Source: a virus. From it: 64,000 nt of DNA. The notes below the pieces were generated by a model. That model worked only from the letters and a program-made list of their open reading frames with translations, had not been told where the DNA came from and ran no database searches. Both the position numbers and the translations under genes were made by a program. This document shows, in pieces, positions 31,050-48,801 of this stretch; the first letter of the stretch is position 1, and every line of letters starts with the position of its first letter. Location: positions 1 to 64,000 of IMG/VR virus record IMGVR_UViG_3300032241_002567. The stretch is one strand, 5' to 3'.

Positions 31050-32048
31050 TTAGAGATTAATTTTAATTAATTTATATGGATATTTTCTTTTTATATAAAA
31101 CTTTTCTCTTTCTAAAAATTGTTTATAAAAGATATTTTTTGGATCTTTTTCAAATATATCCACCAAATCAAAAACATTAGCGGTATTTTTCCCACTAAAT
31201 AATCTTAAAATACGACCTATTGATTGTATTATTATTTGCTCTGATTTAAATGAATCAGCAAAAATCACATTAAAAAGATTTTTAATTGATACACCAGTAG
31301 AAAGAGTTCCAAATGATGCAACAAGTATTCTTATTTTACCATCATTTAATTCCATTTGTTTTTTTATTTCTTCTCTTTTTTTGCCATTAATTTCTCCATC
31401 AATATAAAAAAATTCTTTATCTGATAATTCTTTTTGTAATTTTTCAAATATTTTCTGTCCATATTCAATGGTATGAAAAAGAATTAAAGTATTATTATTA
31501 CATTTTTCAACAATCTTTTTAATAAAATCTAATCTTTTATCAGAAACATGTATATATTCTTTCTCAATTAAATAAGCCGCTTGTCCAGCACCTTGTTTTT
31601 TAACATAGTTAATCTTATCATTAAACTCTTTATCATTATGGTTTAACATAAGCACTTTAATATCCATTGGTGTTATGATTCCTTTTTCAATTAAAGTTTT
31701 TGCTTCTACATTAGAAATAATTGGACCTAAAACAGATTGTATATAAAGTATTTCCATAGTTTCTTCTGTTGGAAAAGTTCCGGATACACCGAATCTATTA
31801 TAAGCATGTCCAAATGTTTTGGATAATATTGATTTGAGACTTTTTGATTTTGCTGTGTGACATTCATCTACGGATACCGTGTGAAATTGTTCGAAAAAAT
31901 CTTTTGGATAATTTACTAATGATTGATAAGTTCCAATACATATATTAGGATTTTCAGAATTAGAATGTTTTCTAGGTCTATCAGACATTATTTCTTCTAT
32001 TCTTATCGGCTCTTCTTTTTTAATTTTGCTAATTCTTTTAATTTTCAT
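31050..32048 (-). CDS. UvsW-like helicase, C-terminal half (fractured gene)
   Basis: The 332-aa piece starts with an intein-C-like stretch (MKIKRISKIKKEEPIRIEEI, 1-20) and then enters helicase sequence: NICIGTYQSL, motif II VDECHTA (60-66), motif III-like GVSGTFP, and the second RecA domain with ASFGTLSTGVSIKN (motif V) and QSIGRILR (275-282, motif VI). Alignment by eye with T4 UvsW is good from here to the end. Motif I is missing because it lies in the separate gene at 33273-33998. UvsW remodels recombination and replication forks. Its start overlaps the homing endonuclease gene by 11 bp. Function needs joining or assembly with the N-half. Confidence 0.85.
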   Translation of the reverse strand: MKIKRISKIKKEEPIRIEEIMSDRPRKHSNSENPNICIGTYQSLVNYPKDFFEQFHTVSVDECHTAKSKSLKSILSKTFGHAYNRFGVSGTFPTEETMEILYIQSVLGPIISNVEAKTLIEKGIITPMDIKVLMLNHNDKEFNDKINYVKKQGAGQAAYLIEKEYIHVSDKRLDFIKKIVEKCNNNTLILFHTIEYGQKIFEKLQKELSDKEFFYIDGEINGKKREEIKKQMELNDGKIRILVASFGTLSTGVSIKNLFNVIFADSFKSEQIIIQSIGRILRLFSGKNTANVFDLVDIFEKDPKNIFYKQFLEREKFYIKRKYPYKLIKINL

Positions 32049-33276
32049 TTGCTAATTCTTTTTTTAAAATTTCATTAATCTTTTTAATATTCCAATATGG
32101 AATTCTAATTAATTTTTCATTATTTACTTTGAGTAATTCTTCTTTTAATACATCTCTGTGTTTTTGATATTCGAATTTTTTTAATCCACCAAAATATTCA
32201 ATCGGTTCAAAATGCTGTTTACCATCAAATTCAATAAATATATTTTTTTCGGGGAGATAAAAATCAAAGTAGAACCCATATTTTGGATATTGTTGATTAA
32301 ATTTATAAAAATTTTCTTCTAGAAATATTCTTATTGTTTTTTCACCCTTTGTTTCTTTACATATAGGGCATCCTTTGCTATAATTTAAATAATATCCCGC
32401 TTTTTGTTTAAAAATTCCATGTTTATCACAAGTTGCACTTATATATTCATTGATTCCTTTATATTCTGTTATACTATGATCTATTTCGGGATATCGCAAT
32501 TTGCAAATATTTAAAAATTCATCATTTGTATATTTTTTACTTTCTATTCCACATAAATTACAACCATGTCCTGATAATAAAATTTCTGGTTTAGATGAAA
32601 AGTCTCCGTGTTTATTACAAGTTATTATTACCTTATTTTTGAAGTCTATAAAATTACATTTTTCAAAAGAATAGTTATTAAATTTATTCTTTAAGCATTC
32701 AATAAAAAAATTATTATCATATTTTTTTTTCTTAGAACATTTTCTACATCCATATCCAAGTAAATGTTTATCTTTTCTTATTGTAAAATCTCCATGTAAT
32801 TTACAGGACACAATTATATTTTCTTTATTTAAAAATCCGTCTTTATACGAATATTTATTATTATGTGTTGTTAATAATTTATTTCTTAAATCATTTTCAT
32901 CCCATATTTTACCTTTACAATAAATACAAGCTTGTCCATCTAAAAGTTGAGTAACTCTTATTAGTTTTTCGCCGTGTTTACATTTCATCAAAATTTTTGA
33001 TTTAGTGTTGACATAACCGGAAAAATCAAATTCATAATTTTTGTGTAAATTTAAAATCTTAATCTTAACCTCTTCTATTGAATATGAATTACTACAAATT
33101 TTACAACCTTGACCTTTTATATGTTTTGCAGCAGATTGTAAAAACCCCCCATGTATTTTGCATTTTATTATTGATTTATTATGATAATTTTTGTAAATAA
33201 AATTATCATAATTATATCTATCACCATGTAATTTAGTGAAATCTATCAGTATTTCTTCTCTTGTTTTTTTCCTCAT
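32038..33276 (-). CDS. EDxHD-type homing endonuclease with zinc-ribbon repeats
   Basis: The first ~320 residues hold about six copies of a CxxC-type ribbon with 'C-x-x-H-G-x-F' cores (KCKIHGGF...GCKICS, SCKLHGDF...GCRKCS, TCNKHGDF...CNLCG, TCDKHGIF...CPICK), probably the DNA-binding part. The last ~75 residues form a Vsr-like nuclease: FDFYLPE (337-343), IEFDGKQHFEP (348-358), QKHRD (371-375) and LIRIPYW (389-395). This matches the EDxHD homing endonucleases found in phage 'fractured genes'. It lies between the two UvsW halves with ATGA-type overlaps at both ends, so it presumably targets an intact uvsW. Confidence 0.82.
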   Translation of the reverse strand: MRKKTREEILIDFTKLHGDRYNYDNFIYKNYHNKSIIKCKIHGGFLQSAAKHIKGQGCKICSNSYSIEEVKIKILNLHKNYEFDFSGYVNTKSKILMKCKHGEKLIRVTQLLDGQACIYCKGKIWDENDLRNKLLTTHNNKYSYKDGFLNKENIIVSCKLHGDFTIRKDKHLLGYGCRKCSKKKKYDNNFFIECLKNKFNNYSFEKCNFIDFKNKVIITCNKHGDFSSKPEILLSGHGCNLCGIESKKYTNDEFLNICKLRYPEIDHSITEYKGINEYISATCDKHGIFKQKAGYYLNYSKGCPICKETKGEKTIRIFLEENFYKFNQQYPKYGFYFDFYLPEKNIFIEFDGKQHFEPIEYFGGLKKFEYQKHRDVLKEELLKVNNEKLIRIPYWNIKKINEILKKELANEN

Positions 33277-33998
33277 ATTTCGTCAGTGCTTTTTAATTCA
33301 TAACAGAAAATTTCACCTCTATTTTTTGTTAAAATTTTTTCACCTGGATTTTTTCTTAAAATTGTACCATCTTCCAATTCTAATTCTATTTCATAATCAT
33401 ATATATTATTAATATTATTCTCCCCATAGAAGTTTTTTAGAAAGTCATCATACATTTGTGTCACCAATGAGATGGAAGGCACAATTAACAACATTTTAGC
33501 ATCTTGATTAAGATGTGTTATAGTATAAAAATAAACAATAGAAATAATTAAAGATTTACCACCAGAAGTGGCAACTTCTGCCAAACAATAACGATTTTTT
33601 AAGATTTTAAATGCAGTTTCTATTTGGTGATCATATGGCATAAATGGAATCCATTGTTCGTCTTTTTTAACTTTATGATTTTTAAAAAATTCTTTACAAA
33701 AGTCTTGCACTGATTCTAATGTAACATTTCTATTAATAGGAAATTCTTCTTTATTTGTAATAGTGAATTTTGCACCTATTATTTGACACGCTTTAAGACA
33801 TTCTTTCCATAGACCTTGATTTATTTTACCACCATTAAAAACTGAATCTTTACCGTCCCAATACCCTGCTTTAAATGCAGGTGTAAAGCGATATCCCTTA
33901 GGATTTCTAGTAAGCCATATATCTAATTGATGATATTCGGTTCTTGTTGCTTCTGTCACAACAAGTTTTTCAGTTTTCGGATCATATTTTAGTTCCAT
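33273..33998 (-). CDS. UvsW-like helicase, N-terminal half with Hint-like tail
   Basis: Residues 1-190 align by eye with T4 UvsW: an N-terminal domain with YRFTPAFKAGYWDG, the Q-like PYDHQ, motif I ATSGGKS (143-149) and motif Ia LIVPSISLVTQM. From about residue 200 the helicase stops and a Hint/intein-like stretch begins: YEIELELEDGTILRKNP, then KILTKNRGEI and ELKSTDEI at the very end. In split inteins this is the middle of the N-half, but the first ~50 residues with the nucleophile Cys1 are absent. So trans-splicing by the usual route seems impossible. Its TGA overlaps the ATG of the endonuclease gene. Confidence 0.85.
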   Translation of the reverse strand: MELKYDPKTEKLVVTEATRTEYHQLDIWLTRNPKGYRFTPAFKAGYWDGKDSVFNGGKINQGLWKECLKACQIIGAKFTITNKEEFPINRNVTLESVQDFCKEFFKNHKVKKDEQWIPFMPYDHQIETAFKILKNRYCLAEVATSGGKSLIISIVYFYTITHLNQDAKMLLIVPSISLVTQMYDDFLKNFYGENNINNIYDYEIELELEDGTILRKNPGEKILTKNRGEIFCYELKSTDEI

Positions 33999-44056: not shown

Positions 44057-44341
44057 TTAAATTTTATTTTGTAAATATAATTGGTTTGAAATATATTCTG
44101 AATAAGCAATAGATTCGTCTATTTGCTTACAAAGATACGAATTAATTCCGTAATAATTCATATAGTTTTTATAAGTATCTGTTTCTTCCACAGTTAATGG
44201 TATATACTCTATATCCTTTAAAATAGAATCTATTTTTCTATCTCTATTAACCGCTTTTAATTCTCTTTCTATTTCTTTAGCAAGAAAAATATCTTTTTCG
44301 TAAATATCAGAATGCATAGTTATATTAAAATTCCCATTCAT
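44057..44341 (-). CDS. Small protein carrying the NRDRKIDSIL module (94 aa)
   Basis: The start MNGNFNITMHSD at 44341 overlaps the end of the polymerase piece by 17 bp; a later Met (44317) is possible. Residues ~24-60 hold the fifth copy of the repeated module: KAVNRDRKIDSILKDIEY followed by VEETDTYKNY. The C-terminal 35 residues are unrelated to the other copies. It has no capsid-like part, so this copy lies in a different context from the array at 47.7-49.0 kb. The function is unknown. Confidence 0.6.
   Translation of the reverse strand: MNGNFNITMHSDIYEKDIFLAKEIERELKAVNRDRKIDSILKDIEYIPLTVEETDTYKNYMNYYGINSYLCKQIDESIAYSEYISNQLYLQNKI
44162..44272 (-). repeat. Copy 5 of the NRDRKIDSIL peptide module
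   Basis: This coding segment gives KEIERELKAVNRDRKIDSIL and then KDIEY...VEETDTYKNY. It aligns with the four copies at 47.8-48.9 kb over about 35 residues, while DNA identity is only moderate, so the copies are old or under protein-level selection. Confidence 0.7.
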
Positions 44342-45731
44342 CCCATTTTTGTTTGTTAAATTCATCATCTGTATAATCTTCATCAGTTTCTTCTTGTTTT
44401 TTCTTTTGTAATGAACTACCAAATATATCCAATACAACTGATAATCTTTTTGTTATTTCTGGCATTCCTAATGGTTCTATAATTGAATTGATAGGAGATA
44501 AGATACATTTATCAAATTGTTCGTCTAAATCTATTTCAGGCGCAATTTCAATAGGATAAGAACCACGATTAAATGCGAATACCGAATTAATTTTTTTATT
44601 CTTACAATAATAATATTTTATTTTAGAACCAGATTTTAAGAATTCATATTTAGATTGTAAATCTTTATTTTTATATAACAACCAATTATAATAAGCGGAA
44701 GCTTTTACCGCAAAATGAGCACCGTTTACAAATAATAATTTATTTTTATCATCCAAAACTTTTTCATTATAATTAGAGCAACTAGATTGCATACTAATCT
44801 CATCAATTCTATCCGGAACACATAAATCAAATTCTTTTTTAAGATTTTTAACCAATTTAAGTAATTCCCGAATGTTAAAAGTATCTGGGTGACTAAATAA
44901 ATATTTAATAATATCTACGATTTTATCTCTCGCAAATGATGGTGTAGAACGTCTAACTAGCTCAACTCCCTTTGGATAGATATAATTTAATCTTTCATAA
45001 GGTATGCCATCTTCAAATACTATGTGTTGAATATATTTCTTTTTGGCAATATAAATAACAGATTCACTAATTCTTTCTAATTCAAAATCTTCTTTATTTG
45101 TAACTCCATAACTTTCAGCATATTCTTCAAGACATTTCTTAAAATATCCAGCATAACGATAATAGTCAAGTCCATGTATATAATCTAATTCATAAGACCA
45201 GTTCCATTTAAGTTTTGATTCTAATTTATTATCATTGATAAACTTATCAAAATCACGATTTTTGATCCATTTACCATCCGCTATAAATAATTCTATTTCA
45301 TCTAAATTTTGAATATCGGACAAATTTTCATAAATACCTAAACAATTAGGATTATCTGATTTAATTTCTTCTCTACCTTTTAGAATTATATGCTTTTTAG
45401 TTATTTTATCTAAATTAGAAAAGAAAAGATTTTTCCAATCTGAATGTGTTATTGCTGGTTTAAATGATACGAATAAAGAATCTGTGTCAGCGTAAATGCT
45501 AACTGGCTCTTTTTCTATTTGCTTTATTTTTCTAATGCAAACTTTTTGATGTAATTCTGTATCTTTATGCCATTGATTATACCAATAATCTTCGTTAACA
45601 CGATTCATTGTTTTAGTCAAATCTCTACCCTGAGCTGTGATTGAAGATGCCACATGGTTATTAAATAGAACGAAATAGGATGCCGCGAAGGCGCCATATG
45701 ATTTTTGCCCCACCATTTCTGGTGGGGCCAT
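44325..45731 (-). CDS. Family B DNA polymerase, C-terminal part (downstream of the motif B break)
   Basis: The frame from ATG 45731 gives MAPPEMVGQKSYGAFAASYF. YGAF is the second half of polymerase motif B; the first half (KLVLNGS) is the end of the small upstream frame at 45732-45857. Residues 80-90 read YADTDSLFVSF, motif C with the two catalytic Asp, and the rest fits the palm and thumb. The C-terminus, KQKWDEWEF, is acidic-aromatic like the clamp-binding tail of phage polymerases. The 3'-5' exonuclease and motif A are not in this window. The first ~10 residues come from the interrupting element and are not expected in a working enzyme. Confidence 0.85.
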   Translation of the reverse strand: MAPPEMVGQKSYGAFAASYFVLFNNHVASSITAQGRDLTKTMNRVNEDYWYNQWHKDTELHQKVCIRKIKQIEKEPVSIYADTDSLFVSFKPAITHSDWKNLFFSNLDKITKKHIILKGREEIKSDNPNCLGIYENLSDIQNLDEIELFIADGKWIKNRDFDKFINDNKLESKLKWNWSYELDYIHGLDYYRYAGYFKKCLEEYAESYGVTNKEDFELERISESVIYIAKKKYIQHIVFEDGIPYERLNYIYPKGVELVRRSTPSFARDKIVDIIKYLFSHPDTFNIRELLKLVKNLKKEFDLCVPDRIDEISMQSSCSNYNEKVLDDKNKLLFVNGAHFAVKASAYYNWLLYKNKDLQSKYEFLKSGSKIKYYYCKNKKINSVFAFNRGSYPIEIAPEIDLDEQFDKCILSPINSIIEPLGMPEITKRLSVVLDIFGSSLQKKKQEETDEDYTDDEFNKQKWDEWEF

Positions 45732-45750
45732 TTAAGATCCATTAAGAACT
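45699..45750 (-). other. Interruption of polymerase motif B: candidate translational bypass element
   Basis: In mRNA order: an upstream stem arm ends at 45740 (its partner is at 45823-45813, 11 bp, CATTAAGAACT / AGTTCTTAATG). Then come GGA TCT, the stop TAA (45734-45732), an 8-bp GC-rich hairpin GCCCCACC-agaaat-GGTGGGGC (45728-45707), AAAAA and TCA (45701-45699), followed by TAT GGC GCC. Removing 36 nt (12 codons) restores KLVLNGS-YGAF, a regular motif B. Both edges are Ser codons, TCT and TCA. This is the layout of T4 gene 60 bypassing: take-off codon, stop, hairpin, landing codon with the same amino acid, and an upstream stem. Stop-restart at TAAATG is the main alternative. Confidence 0.6.
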
Positions 45751-45857
45751 AACTTGAGTGCTAATTGTAAGGCATTGAAATAATCAACATCCTTTTTCAA
45801 GTTAGCAGCTTGAGTTCTTAATGAATCTAATTGTATTAATTTTTCTTCTTTTGTCAT
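45732..45857 (-). CDS. DNA polymerase fingers piece ending in motif B half (41 aa)
   Basis: The 41-codon frame starts at ATG 45857 (MTKEEKLIQLDSLRTQAANL) and ends YFNALQLALKLVLNGS-stop. The helix and the terminal KLVLNGS are what precedes YGAF in family B polymerases, so this is the fingers part of the C-terminal half. An in-frame stop lies seven codons upstream of the ATG, so the polymerase gene truly begins here and the exonuclease/motif A half must be encoded elsewhere. Joined to the next frame it would give a ~500-aa C-terminal subunit. Confidence 0.7.
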   Translation of the reverse strand: MTKEEKLIQLDSLRTQAANLKKDVDYFNALQLALKLVLNGS

Positions 45858-45932
45858 TAAAAAGATATGTTTTTAACTTATAAAACTAAACTAAAAGAAA
45901 GTTTTTTATATAAAAATATATATTTTATTATT

Positions 45933-46772
45933 ATGTTAAAAAACAAAAAGATTGAAGTTTATATTTCATACAGAAATATAACTCACTATAAAAAATTAGG
46001 CTATAACCCCGAATTAAATGAGAATTTGGAAATCGATGTTTATGATTTACCGACATCTTCACATGTTAAAATTGATGCTATTTGTGAAATCTGTAAAGCG
46101 GAAATAAATATAAGATATCATAAATATATTGAAAATAAGAAAAGGCATGGTTTTTATGGCTGTAAAAAATGTTCAAGACAAAAAGCTTCTTTAACTATGT
46201 TCGATAAATATGGAGTTTATAATGTTTCAGAATTAGAGGAATGTAAGAATAAAAAAGAAGAAACATATTTAAAAAAATATGGATATAAAACCAATTTAAT
46301 TTCCCCAGATTATATTTCACTTATAAAAGAAAAATTGAAAGAAAAATATAATACAGAAAATTGGTATGAGATTAGAAACGGTCAAGGTTCTCCTAAAAAA
46401 TTAATAATTTTTGCAGAATCAAAAGAATATACCGAGATAAGTTTTAATTATGATAATCAATTCATGAATAGTGACTATATTATGTATAGGAATGAAGTTC
46501 GTAGACTTACTAAGACTAATGAAAAATTGTTATTCCAAAATTGGAATGGTGAAGATTTTTATGATAAAGAAATTATAAGTAATAATTTTATTTTAGATTT
46601 TAATGACCCAAATTATCCAACTATCGATCATAAAATATCTATTTATTATGGTTTCAAAAATAATATGCAGCCAAAAGATATCGCAAAAATAGAAAATCTT
46701 TGTATCACAAAGAGAAGTATTAATTCTTCAAAAAATAGTAAAAATGAATCAGAATTTATTCGTGAAGATTAA
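45933..46772 (+). CDS. Phage homing-type endonuclease (279 aa)
   Basis: The N-terminal half has a CEICKAE...GCKKCS zinc ribbon (~residues 45-80), followed by a basic helical DNA-binding middle (SLIKEKLKEKYNTENWYEIRNGQG). The C-terminal part, YPTIDHKISIYYGFKNN...IAKIENLCITKRSINSSK, fits HNH-like phage nucleases with a DH dyad and a downstream N-L-C-x-T-x-x-x-N-x-x-K. The start at 45933 is preferred over an earlier ATG because the zinc-ribbon fold begins soon after. It lies divergent to, and 75 bp from, the broken polymerase gene, so polymerase is its likely homing target. Confidence 0.72.
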   Translation: MLKNKKIEVYISYRNITHYKKLGYNPELNENLEIDVYDLPTSSHVKIDAICEICKAEINIRYHKYIENKKRHGFYGCKKCSRQKASLTMFDKYGVYNVSELEECKNKKEETYLKKYGYKTNLISPDYISLIKEKLKEKYNTENWYEIRNGQGSPKKLIIFAESKEYTEISFNYDNQFMNSDYIMYRNEVRRLTKTNEKLLFQNWNGEDFYDKEIISNNFILDFNDPNYPTIDHKISIYYGFKNNMQPKDIAKIENLCITKRSINSSKNSKNESEFIRED

Positions 46773-47735: not shown

Positions 47736-48488
47736 TTATTTTTTATCATCATATTTAAAATCCAGATAAAATAATAGATCAGTAGGAGCCGACATTGGTT
47801 GAACAGAAGCTAAACCTGATTTTAAATATTCTTGATATTCTTCTGTATCCTCTAATTTTAATTCTTCATAATCTTCATCAAAAAGAATCGAATCAATTTT
47901 CCTATCACGATTAGTAGCAGTCACTTTTATTTCTGCTTCTTCTAATAGTTTTTCATCACCCATAGATAAAGTTTGAGCAGCAACTCTTCTTACAAGTGGA
48001 AGAACCGCACTAGCAAATGGATTACTTGAAGTTGCGGTATGTTGACTCCATAGTGTTTGTTGCTGTTGCCAAACACTATTAGAATCAGATTCGCTTATTG
48101 AATGTGCTTGTGCATATTCGTGCATCCAATCTGCTCTGCTTCTTGTAATTTCCATAGAATCTAATACAGGTTGCCATTTATCTATTGTTTCTTGTTTATA
48201 TTTTTCTATATGACATGTTGTGTATTTTAGATTTTTAACTGGTTTAAACCAAGTTTCGGAAAATTTTTTATATTCTTCTGTATCTTCAATTTTATATTCT
48301 TGGAATTCTGTATCTTCCAAAATAGAATCAATTTTTCTATCCCTATTTACTGCTATAACTTTTAATTTTGCTGCTTCTAATAGAGGACTTGATATTGTGG
48401 TGGTTGTTAATTGTATAATATATGGAGCATATATTATTTTTGATTCTTGACTTTTATATCCAATTACAATTTTATTTGAATCTTCCAT
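47736..48488 (-). CDS. Shuffled gp23-like capsid fragments joined by two NRDRKIDSIL modules (250 aa)
   Basis: Residues 5-34 (IVIGYKSQESKIIYAPYI) recall gp23 near its C-terminus (VGYKG...GIYYAPYV). Residues 36-75 are module copy 1. Residues ~98-178 recall the gp23 N-terminus: IDKWQPVLD, SRADWMHEYAQAH, then LPLVRRVAAQTLSMG. Residues ~179-224 are module copy 2. Residues 226-247 (LASVQPMSAPTDLLFYLDFKY) continue gp23 exactly where the module broke it, matching T4's GVQPMNSPTGQVF. So C-terminal, N-terminal and next-to-N pieces stand in the wrong order. No complete capsid protein is possible. The gene starts inside the end of the previous one. A decoy, regulator or debris are all open. Confidence 0.7.
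   Translation of the reverse strand: MEDSNKIVIGYKSQESKIIYAPYIIQLTTTTISSPLLEAAKLKVIAVNRDRKIDSILEDTEFQEYKIEDTEEYKKFSETWFKPVKNLKYTTCHIEKYKQETIDKWQPVLDSMEITRSRADWMHEYAQAHSISESDSNSVWQQQQTLWSQHTATSSNPFASAVLPLVRRVAAQTLSMGDEKLLEEAEIKVTATNRDRKIDSILFDEDYEELKLEDTEEYQEYLKSGLASVQPMSAPTDLLFYLDFKYDDKK
47817..47954 (-). repeat. Copy 2 of the NRDRKIDSIL peptide module
   Basis: This segment encodes LLEEAEIKVTATNRDRKIDS and continues IL, FDEDYEEL, KLEDTEEYQEY. It lies between two gp23-like pieces that are adjacent in normal gp23, so it looks like an in-frame insertion of about 46 codons. Confidence 0.75.
48264..48383 (-). repeat. Copy 1 of the NRDRKIDSIL peptide module
   Basis: The encoded peptide is LLEAAKLKVIAVNRDRKIDS, then ILEDTEFQEYKIEDTEEYKK. 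It follows a C-terminal gp23-like piece and precedes an N-terminal one. Confidence 0.75.
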
Positions 48489-48801
48489 ATTTTATCCATT
48501 CTTCTTTATATTTATCAGACAATCTTTTAAATTCTTCTGTGTCTTCTATATTAGTTGGTGTAAATTCTTTATCTTCTAAAATAGAATTAAGTTTTCCTTC
48601 TCTATTTTGAGCAGTTATTCCAGCAGCAAATTTTTCAAAATTTGCTGCTATTAATTCAGATGCTAAAATATTTTCTAGTGCAGCCTCTACATCTATTCCA
48701 CATTGTGCATACAATCCAGCAGCCTGTTCTCTTGTAATAGAAGCTTTAATTGTTTGAGTTCCAATTTTTATTTCTTTACTTATATTATTTAAGTTTGCCA
48801 T
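48472..48801 (-). CDS. gp23-like middle fragment fused to an NRDRKIDSIL-type module (109 aa)
   Basis: Residues ~8-52 (KEIKIGTQTIKASITREQAA, then GLYAQCGIDVEAALENILASEL) resemble the gp23 middle part (VIEAKSRQLKAAYSIELAQD and so on to ILATEI). The second half is a module copy: ITAQNREGKLNSILEDKEF, then IEDTEEFKRL and the tail WIKYGRFK. The last 17 bp overlap the start of the next array gene in another frame, the same arrangement as at the end of the preceding remnant. It is a fragment and not a working capsid protein. Confidence 0.68.
   Translation of the reverse strand: MANLNNISKEIKIGTQTIKASITREQAAGLYAQCGIDVEAALENILASELIAANFEKFAAGITAQNREGKLNSILEDKEFTPTNIEDTEEFKRLSDKYKEEWIKYGRFK
48496..48642 (-). 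repeat. Copy 3 of the NRDRKIDSIL peptide module
   Basis: The encoded core is QNREGKLNSILEDKEF with the tail NIEDTEEFKRLSDKYKEEW. It differs from copies 1 and 2 by Gly for Arg and Leu-Asn for Ile-Asp, and is closest to copy 4. Confidence 0.72.

Follow-up and report, generated by a model that had tools for sequence, protein, structure and literature searches.

T4 gene 60 is essentially the sole well-characterised phage case of long ribosome bypassing so far. The original work on the endonuclease-split T4 topoisomerase gene is reportedly that of Bonocora, Shub and colleagues in PNAS in 2011. In the model for gene 60, the ribosome stalls at a take-off codon with a stop and a hairpin ahead of it, the peptidyl-tRNA is released and lands on a matched codon, and an upstream structure that re-forms behind the ribosome serves as the motor (PMC11194080; PMC5009743). 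The topoisomerase gene was split by an endonuclease, and the bypassed insert may protect it from the nuclease; according to a 2016 review, counterparts of gene 60 have long been presumed (PMC5009743). The closest systems described besides gene 60 are the mitochondrial byps of Magnusiomyces capitatus (PMC5009743) and the split polymerase gene 43 (IC-UTS, seg43) that Aeromonas phages 44RR and 25 carry (PMC2988022). A literature search, with subscription papers and preprints mostly outside its reach, found bypass elements reported neither for phage polymerases nor for huge phages.

The locus described here lies on the minus strand of a 64,000-nucleotide stretch (the window) that belongs to a 143.8-kb virus record. 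Polymerase motif B is split at 45699-45857: the reading frame arrives at KLVLNGS, the serine being encoded by TCT, meets TAA and a GC-rich hairpin, and after TCA goes on as YGAF. The upstream piece, ORF1 (45732..45857, with its ATG at 45857), has 41 codons, MTKEEKLIQLDSLRTQAANLKKDVDYFNALQLALKLVLNGS, that cover the fingers helix and the start of motif B and end in TAA; it is homologous to the uninterrupted N-terminus MTKEEK...KLVLNGSYGAF of five relatives (L005, L007, L008, L013 and L018). The proposed take-off codon TCT (Ser, 45737-45735) adjoins the stop TAA (45734-45732), which is the first codon of a 36-nt insert (45734-45699). This insert is the proposed bypassed gap; its boundaries were taken from protein alignment and it is missing in the uninterrupted homologues. 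It contains the stop, a 9-bp GC-rich hairpin, P3, with a GAAA loop (45707-45728, GCCCCACCA-GAAA-TGGTGGGGC) and then AAAAATCA. The proposed landing codon is TCA (Ser, 45701-45699), and the frame resumes at TAT (45698-45696) with TAT GGC GCC TTC (YGAF). From there the rest of the polymerase C-terminal subunit, with motif C and the thumb, is open to 44325 (44325..45698). No other stem in the 64-kb window, whose GC content is 27%, combines 6 or more GC pairs with a loop of at most 14 nt as P3 does; two stems passed the same criterion in the 80 kb of the record beyond the window, both of them long palindromes. Upstream, a second RNA stem, P2 (45735..45828), is formed by arms at 45813-45828 and 45735-45750, with a nested 9-bp helix (45797-45805 with 45749-45757). 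Its 16 nt are paired at 94%, and the last base of the take-off codon is the end of its 3' arm. The fold from codon 10 to take-off had an energy of -33 kcal/mol (z = -7.4 against dinucleotide shuffles). Most of this anatomy had been noticed in a sequence-only reading of the window, of which the interruption of KLVLNGS by TAA, its repair to KLVLNGSYGAF by excision of 36 nt and the two flanking serine codons were confirmed, on the minus strand. The GC-rich hairpin in an AT-rich setting stood as well, with 9 bp instead of 8, and so did the upstream stem, which had been taken for 11 bp ending 2 nt before the last two codons and in fact reaches the take-off codon; the RNA folding that the reading suggested bore this stem out.

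The frame downstream encodes a family-B DNA polymerase (PF00136, E=9e-15; phrog_262, E=4e-39) with a mean column identity of 66% across relatives. Pfam and PHROG searches of the 143.8-kb record gave the C-terminal part only, and the N-terminal half (exonuclease and motif A) was not found there; the absence of a Pfam exonuclease match in this record is explained by the N-half lying elsewhere. The relatives encode this half, with the exonuclease and motif A (YDFASLYP), in a gene of its own (about 500 aa), located 42-133 kb from the C-half in six larger records. Eight larger records were available, six with one N-half and one C-half and two with a C-half only, and none of the eight had a complete polymerase gene or a second intact one. 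The predicted gene product is one subunit, the C-terminal one, of a family-B DNA polymerase split over separate genes. The "N-terminal piece" of the sequence-only reading thus exists, but it is merely 41 aa long, the real N-terminal half being a separate gene in relatives, and a hop would yield this subunit rather than the intact polymerase then expected. The other complete polymerase gene that was to be looked for was found neither in the 143.8-kb record nor in the larger records of relatives. The longest contigs of the relatives, together with 634- and 642-kb uncultured phage records (65-66% identity in the C-subunit protein), indicate a huge-phage lineage. In the two closest published huge-phage genomes the polymerase is uninterrupted, and a scan of genome contigs returned no relatives.

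The polymerase C gene was found in other arrangements too. In one relative (L016) the frame enters, after YADTDS, an intein-like N-half, C-FSETLVNTNNGEKTIE...DHSMIVFRDG...ILKTDKILVIKN, and then stops. The gene likewise ends at motif C in five others (L027, L030, L079, L089 and L109), and in several of these six the remaining polymerase is located more than 1 kb further on. It looks as if polymerases of this type were made of three genes joined by a split intein. In L026, motif B to the stop spans 599 aa versus the usual ~435, which points to something inserted in frame, for example an intein.

Relatives were collected by IMG/VR scans, and boundaries were placed by a scan that joins the two coding pieces, scores them against uninterrupted proteins and is blind to codon matching. 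This gave 33 distinct interrupted genes, the window included, versus 16-17 uninterrupted relatives, so that the search for homologues without the insert, which the sequence-only reading had proposed, succeeded. The 33 comprise 29 non-redundant genes with clean boundaries, two class A genes with rougher boundaries (L089 and L090), L212 and L218. All the inserts bear a hairpin, measure 36-48 nt and are found at six positions inside 27 nt. Site classes were defined by the last codon: class B after codon 33, A after 34, C after 37, F after 40, D (the window) after 41 and E after 42. Insert lengths leave remainders of 0, 1 and 2 when divided by three; therefore, only exact skipping of the insert restores the polymerase. 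Removal of the insert restored motif B in every case, and the two ORFs encode one conserved protein only if the gap is skipped. In all classes the G+C stem begins 5-7 nt (mostly 6) past the take-off codon, always with the C-arm first. A stop follows within two codons of take-off in 25 of 29 interrupted genes, at codon +1 in the window and three others and at +2 in most; no nearby stop was found in L021, L033, L109 and L112. Most elements have a sense codon in the A site at take-off, followed by the stop. Bypassing in T4 also requires a nascent-peptide signal in the exit tunnel; here the N-terminus is lysine-rich in interrupted and uninterrupted genes alike.

The upstream stem is also a property of the family. 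Between codon 10 and take-off, the mean z was -4.3 in interrupted genes versus -0.3 in 15 uninterrupted ones (Mann-Whitney p=6e-7, an optimistic value since related sequences are counted as independent); against synonymous shuffles, interrupted genes had a mean z of -3.3. A strong fold was present in 28 of 29 interrupted genes. At every site used, the 3' arm reaches the take-off codon and the 5' partner shifts accordingly. Pairing of this stem reaches 74% in classes A and B, with compensatory pairs (GC/CG/AT/TA/GT exchanges), and 37% in the equivalent columns of uninterrupted genes; each class A arm matches its own partner better than the partners of other genes (arm-to-arm permutation, p=0.002). 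No significance was reached for an extension of the stem, in a fixed register, beyond the take-off codon. A hairpin at or after take-off is combined with a 5' structure across the family, save in L017. The class E insert of this relative (L017:5968-6010) has neither an endonuclease nor an upstream stem, and its GC hairpin is extended to 16 bp and includes the take-off codon; it is possibly an alternative way to bypass, or a recombinant. T4 gene 60 gave no significant z in the same test, hence a strong stem upstream is not to be expected of bypass sites in general.

The proposed take-off and landing triplets belong to the same codon box in five of the six site classes: CTT/CTG to CTA in A, GCT to GCA/GCT in B, GTT to GTT/GTA in C, TCT to TCA in D and GGT to GGT in F. 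From the base composition of the 3' tails, the chance of five class-level matches is about 1e-8. Several pairs differ in the third base, and thus they are not simply fresh direct repeats. In class E (Tyr, eight sequences) the landing triplets are AGC, AAC, GAC, CAA or TAA, none of which matches TAT/TAC. Before GGA/GGT, we found AGC in L012, AAC in L015, L017 and L064, TAA in L021 and L086, GAC in L032 and CAA in L074, with A as second base in seven of the eight. This mismatch is the main unexplained fact of the element family. The parts of T4 gene 60 listed in the sequence-only reading hold for the window as regards the hairpin, the upstream structure and the matched serine codons, but across relatives the stop is not universal and the Tyr class is unmatched.

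A homing endonuclease gene (45867..46772, plus strand; phrog_12131 "homing endonuclease", E=8e-7) lies divergent to ORF1 and immediately upstream of it. Its product scores slightly under the cut-off of Pfam DUF7487, which the proteins of relatives exceed; the motif DHK...NLCITK..INS.K is conserved in these endonucleases. Of 31 interrupted genes, 17 have a DUF7487-type endonuclease just upstream, as against none of 17 uninterrupted ones, so that a homing endonuclease is linked to the insert and missing from the empty alleles. With GIY-YIG genes counted, the figures are 18/31 versus 1/17 (Fisher p=5e-4, optimistic for the same reason as above). One uninterrupted relative, L075, has a GIY-YIG-like ORF where interrupted relatives have the DUF7487 endonuclease. 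Interrupted genes devoid of endonuclease are expected if it is later lost. On the tree of the downstream protein, presence and absence of the insert change at least 7 times on well-supported (starred) branches and 14 times on the best tree, and the seven states together need 23 changes; a tree-based pair test gave at best 4 pairs to 0 and has low power. L019 (class B) and L021 (class E) have an identical downstream protein in this tree. Both flanks match at about 95% identity between L008 (empty) and L012 (filled); L012 has in addition a 39-nt insert and, directly ahead of the start codon, a 0.86-kb (approximate length) endonuclease gene, and its first exon is recoded, being 84% identical to that of L008 with stem-forming changes. 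Since all six sites lie within 27 nt, motif B is a plausible target of the endonuclease.

DUF7487-type endonucleases beside other genes had no comparable hairpin. The other CCCCC..GGGGG hairpins in 49 related records were set aside, being flanked by A/T runs or intergenic (terminator-like) or within open ORFs, with no bypass anatomy. Elsewhere in the window, a UvsW-like helicase gene (31050-33998, minus strand) is seemingly in two pieces around a likely endonuclease ORF (32038-33276), and its upstream piece has an intein-like tail, DYEIELELEDGTILRKNPGEKILTKNRGEIFCYELKSTDEI. Small proteins encoded at 44057-44437, 47736-48488 and 48472-48801 (minus strand) have a common repeat module, NRDRKIDSIL.D.E...ED.EEYK, and close to the C-terminus of the one at 47736 there is a weak match to the major capsid protein Gp23 (E=4e-5). 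At about 97.9 kb in the record to which the window belongs (L038:13895-13978) lies an inverted repeat of 39 bp, perfect and with a spacer of 6 nt, that is far longer than the other stems of this record.

T4 gene 60 and the neighbouring mobA resemble these elements in several ways: a hairpin right past take-off, in most genes with a stop close by, matched codons, an out-of-frame gap and an upstream RNA structure (PMC11194080, PMC5009743). Moreover, ORF1 is short in both (46 codons in T4, 33-42 here), a conserved catalytic motif of a split replication gene is broken near the start of the C-terminal piece, and a homing endonuclease gene is close by. However, the T4 gene encodes a topoisomerase and has a 50-nt gap, whereas a DNA polymerase is interrupted here by 36-48 nt, and no sequence similarity was seen. 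The upstream stem is much stronger here and abuts the take-off codon, the A-site codon is mostly a sense codon with the stop one later, and there are six sites with many codons, the Tyr class being unmatched. While mobA is an HNH remnant, the endonuclease gene here is divergent, of DUF7487 type and intact-looking. The Magnusiomyces capitatus byps are likewise many short bypassed inserts in coding sequences, some with imperfectly matched codons (PMC5009743), but they are mitochondrial, occur in many genes and are described as independent of mRNA context, in contrast to a bacterial virus with a single gene concerned and a strong context.

On this comparative evidence, the element is probably a programmed ribosome-bypass site that forms a selfish cassette with the adjacent homing endonuclease gene and spreads together with it. 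The sequences argue that something skips the insert; that ribosomes do so by hopping is what we infer. In the window, the ribosome would arrive at TCT with the stop in its A site and the GC hairpin right ahead, and the peptidyl-tRNA would be released from TCT. The 3' arm of the upstream stem would be freed only when the ribosome leaves the take-off codon; it would then re-zip behind the ribosome and drive it forward. After a slide of about 36 nt, tRNA(Ser) would re-pair with TCA and translation would restart at TAT to give KLVLNGSYGAF. As for mobility, the endonuclease presumably targets motif B, and the insert, by splitting this target, would protect its carrier. Cleavage of uninterrupted polymerase genes would lead to co-conversion of the endonuclease, the recoded first exon and the insert. 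Both proposals of the sequence-only reading, a hop of 33-36 nt and a mobile byp-like element, gain strong comparative support from the many inserts at six sites, the uninterrupted homologues, the exact restoration, the codon matches in five of six classes, the upstream stem and the linked homing endonuclease.

The main rival to hopping is removal at the RNA level, in which an intron of about 40 nt would be excised by a ribozyme-like fold, or by an endonuclease and a ligase acting on the upstream stem and the GC hairpin. It would account for the fact that every class is restored precisely, even class E with its unmatched codons, and for the strong conserved structure on either side of the insert. 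In addition, the landing region could pair with the exon (P1) to form a three-way junction in about 8 of 12 class A genes, but this pairing is confined to some members of class A and its specificity was not significant by permutation (p=0.067). On the other hand, the 3' boundary has no consensus save codon-box identity with the take-off codon, and neither this identity nor the stop within two codons in 25 of 29 genes is needed for splicing. Rfam searches of the window region (E up to 5) and of four relatives found no group I intron core. In phage polymerase genes, introns and inteins that carry homing endonucleases protect themselves by insertion into a conserved target. The elements here would be alike in this respect, but they have no Rfam group I match and are far too short for a known intron or intein. 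To our knowledge, bacteria have no splicing machinery for inserts so small. We therefore regard RNA excision as unlikely for the family. The chance is small, though slightly greater, that the elements, or at least those of the Tyr class, are either tiny (~40-nt) introns of a new kind, excised by a novel RNA-processing activity, or sites bypassed without cognate re-pairing at landing.

Alternatively, translation could terminate and re-initiate to make two polypeptides that assemble. In the window an in-frame ATG directly follows the stop (TAAATG), where a restart would give MAPPEMVGQKSYGAF, and split polymerases do exist, as in 43A/43B of 44RR. This explanation is disfavoured because 14 of the 29 interrupted genes have no in-frame ATG, GTG or TTG before motif B, and most of the others have TTG or GTG only. 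Furthermore, the cut falls inside or beside motif B, and in classes A and B the stretch K-L-V/I-L-N-G-S, from landing to motif B, is still conserved. Gene 43 of 44RR and 25 is a family-B polymerase gene split between motifs A and B, with a linked endonuclease in phage 25 (PMC2988022), but it consists of two true cistrons, the second with its own ATG and an SD-like sequence at a less conserved spot; here the halves are far apart and there is a further insert at motif B, mostly without ATG. The 44RR intercistronic sequence was rejected as an instance of the same element. Restart thus appears very unlikely next to programmed bypassing. Another explanation, which the endonuclease linkage favours, is that the structures act only in DNA, for recognition by or immunity to the endonuclease, or in transcription, the polymerase being made by stop readthrough. 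Readthrough is excluded in most relatives, whose insert lengths make the frame impossible to restore; no T-run follows the hairpin, and the coding strand always has the C-arm ahead of the G-arm, at a fixed spacing to the take-off codon. We consider this explanation highly improbable. A decaying pseudogene or an assembly artefact, which a metagenomic fragment with an in-frame stop within a catalytic motif could suggest, is hardly credible and is already contradicted for the element family as a whole by 33 distinct elements from many metagenomes, a strongly conserved downstream polymerase, a single C-half and no complete polymerase per record, and compensatory changes that preserve the structure.

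If these elements are bypass sites, as we propose, they would form a natural family of more than 30 members, with six sites, several tRNAs and built-in empty alleles, in which the rules of take-off, landing and structure could be read by comparison. They would also support the idea that bypassing arises as the part that makes the self-protecting insert of an endonuclease harmless.
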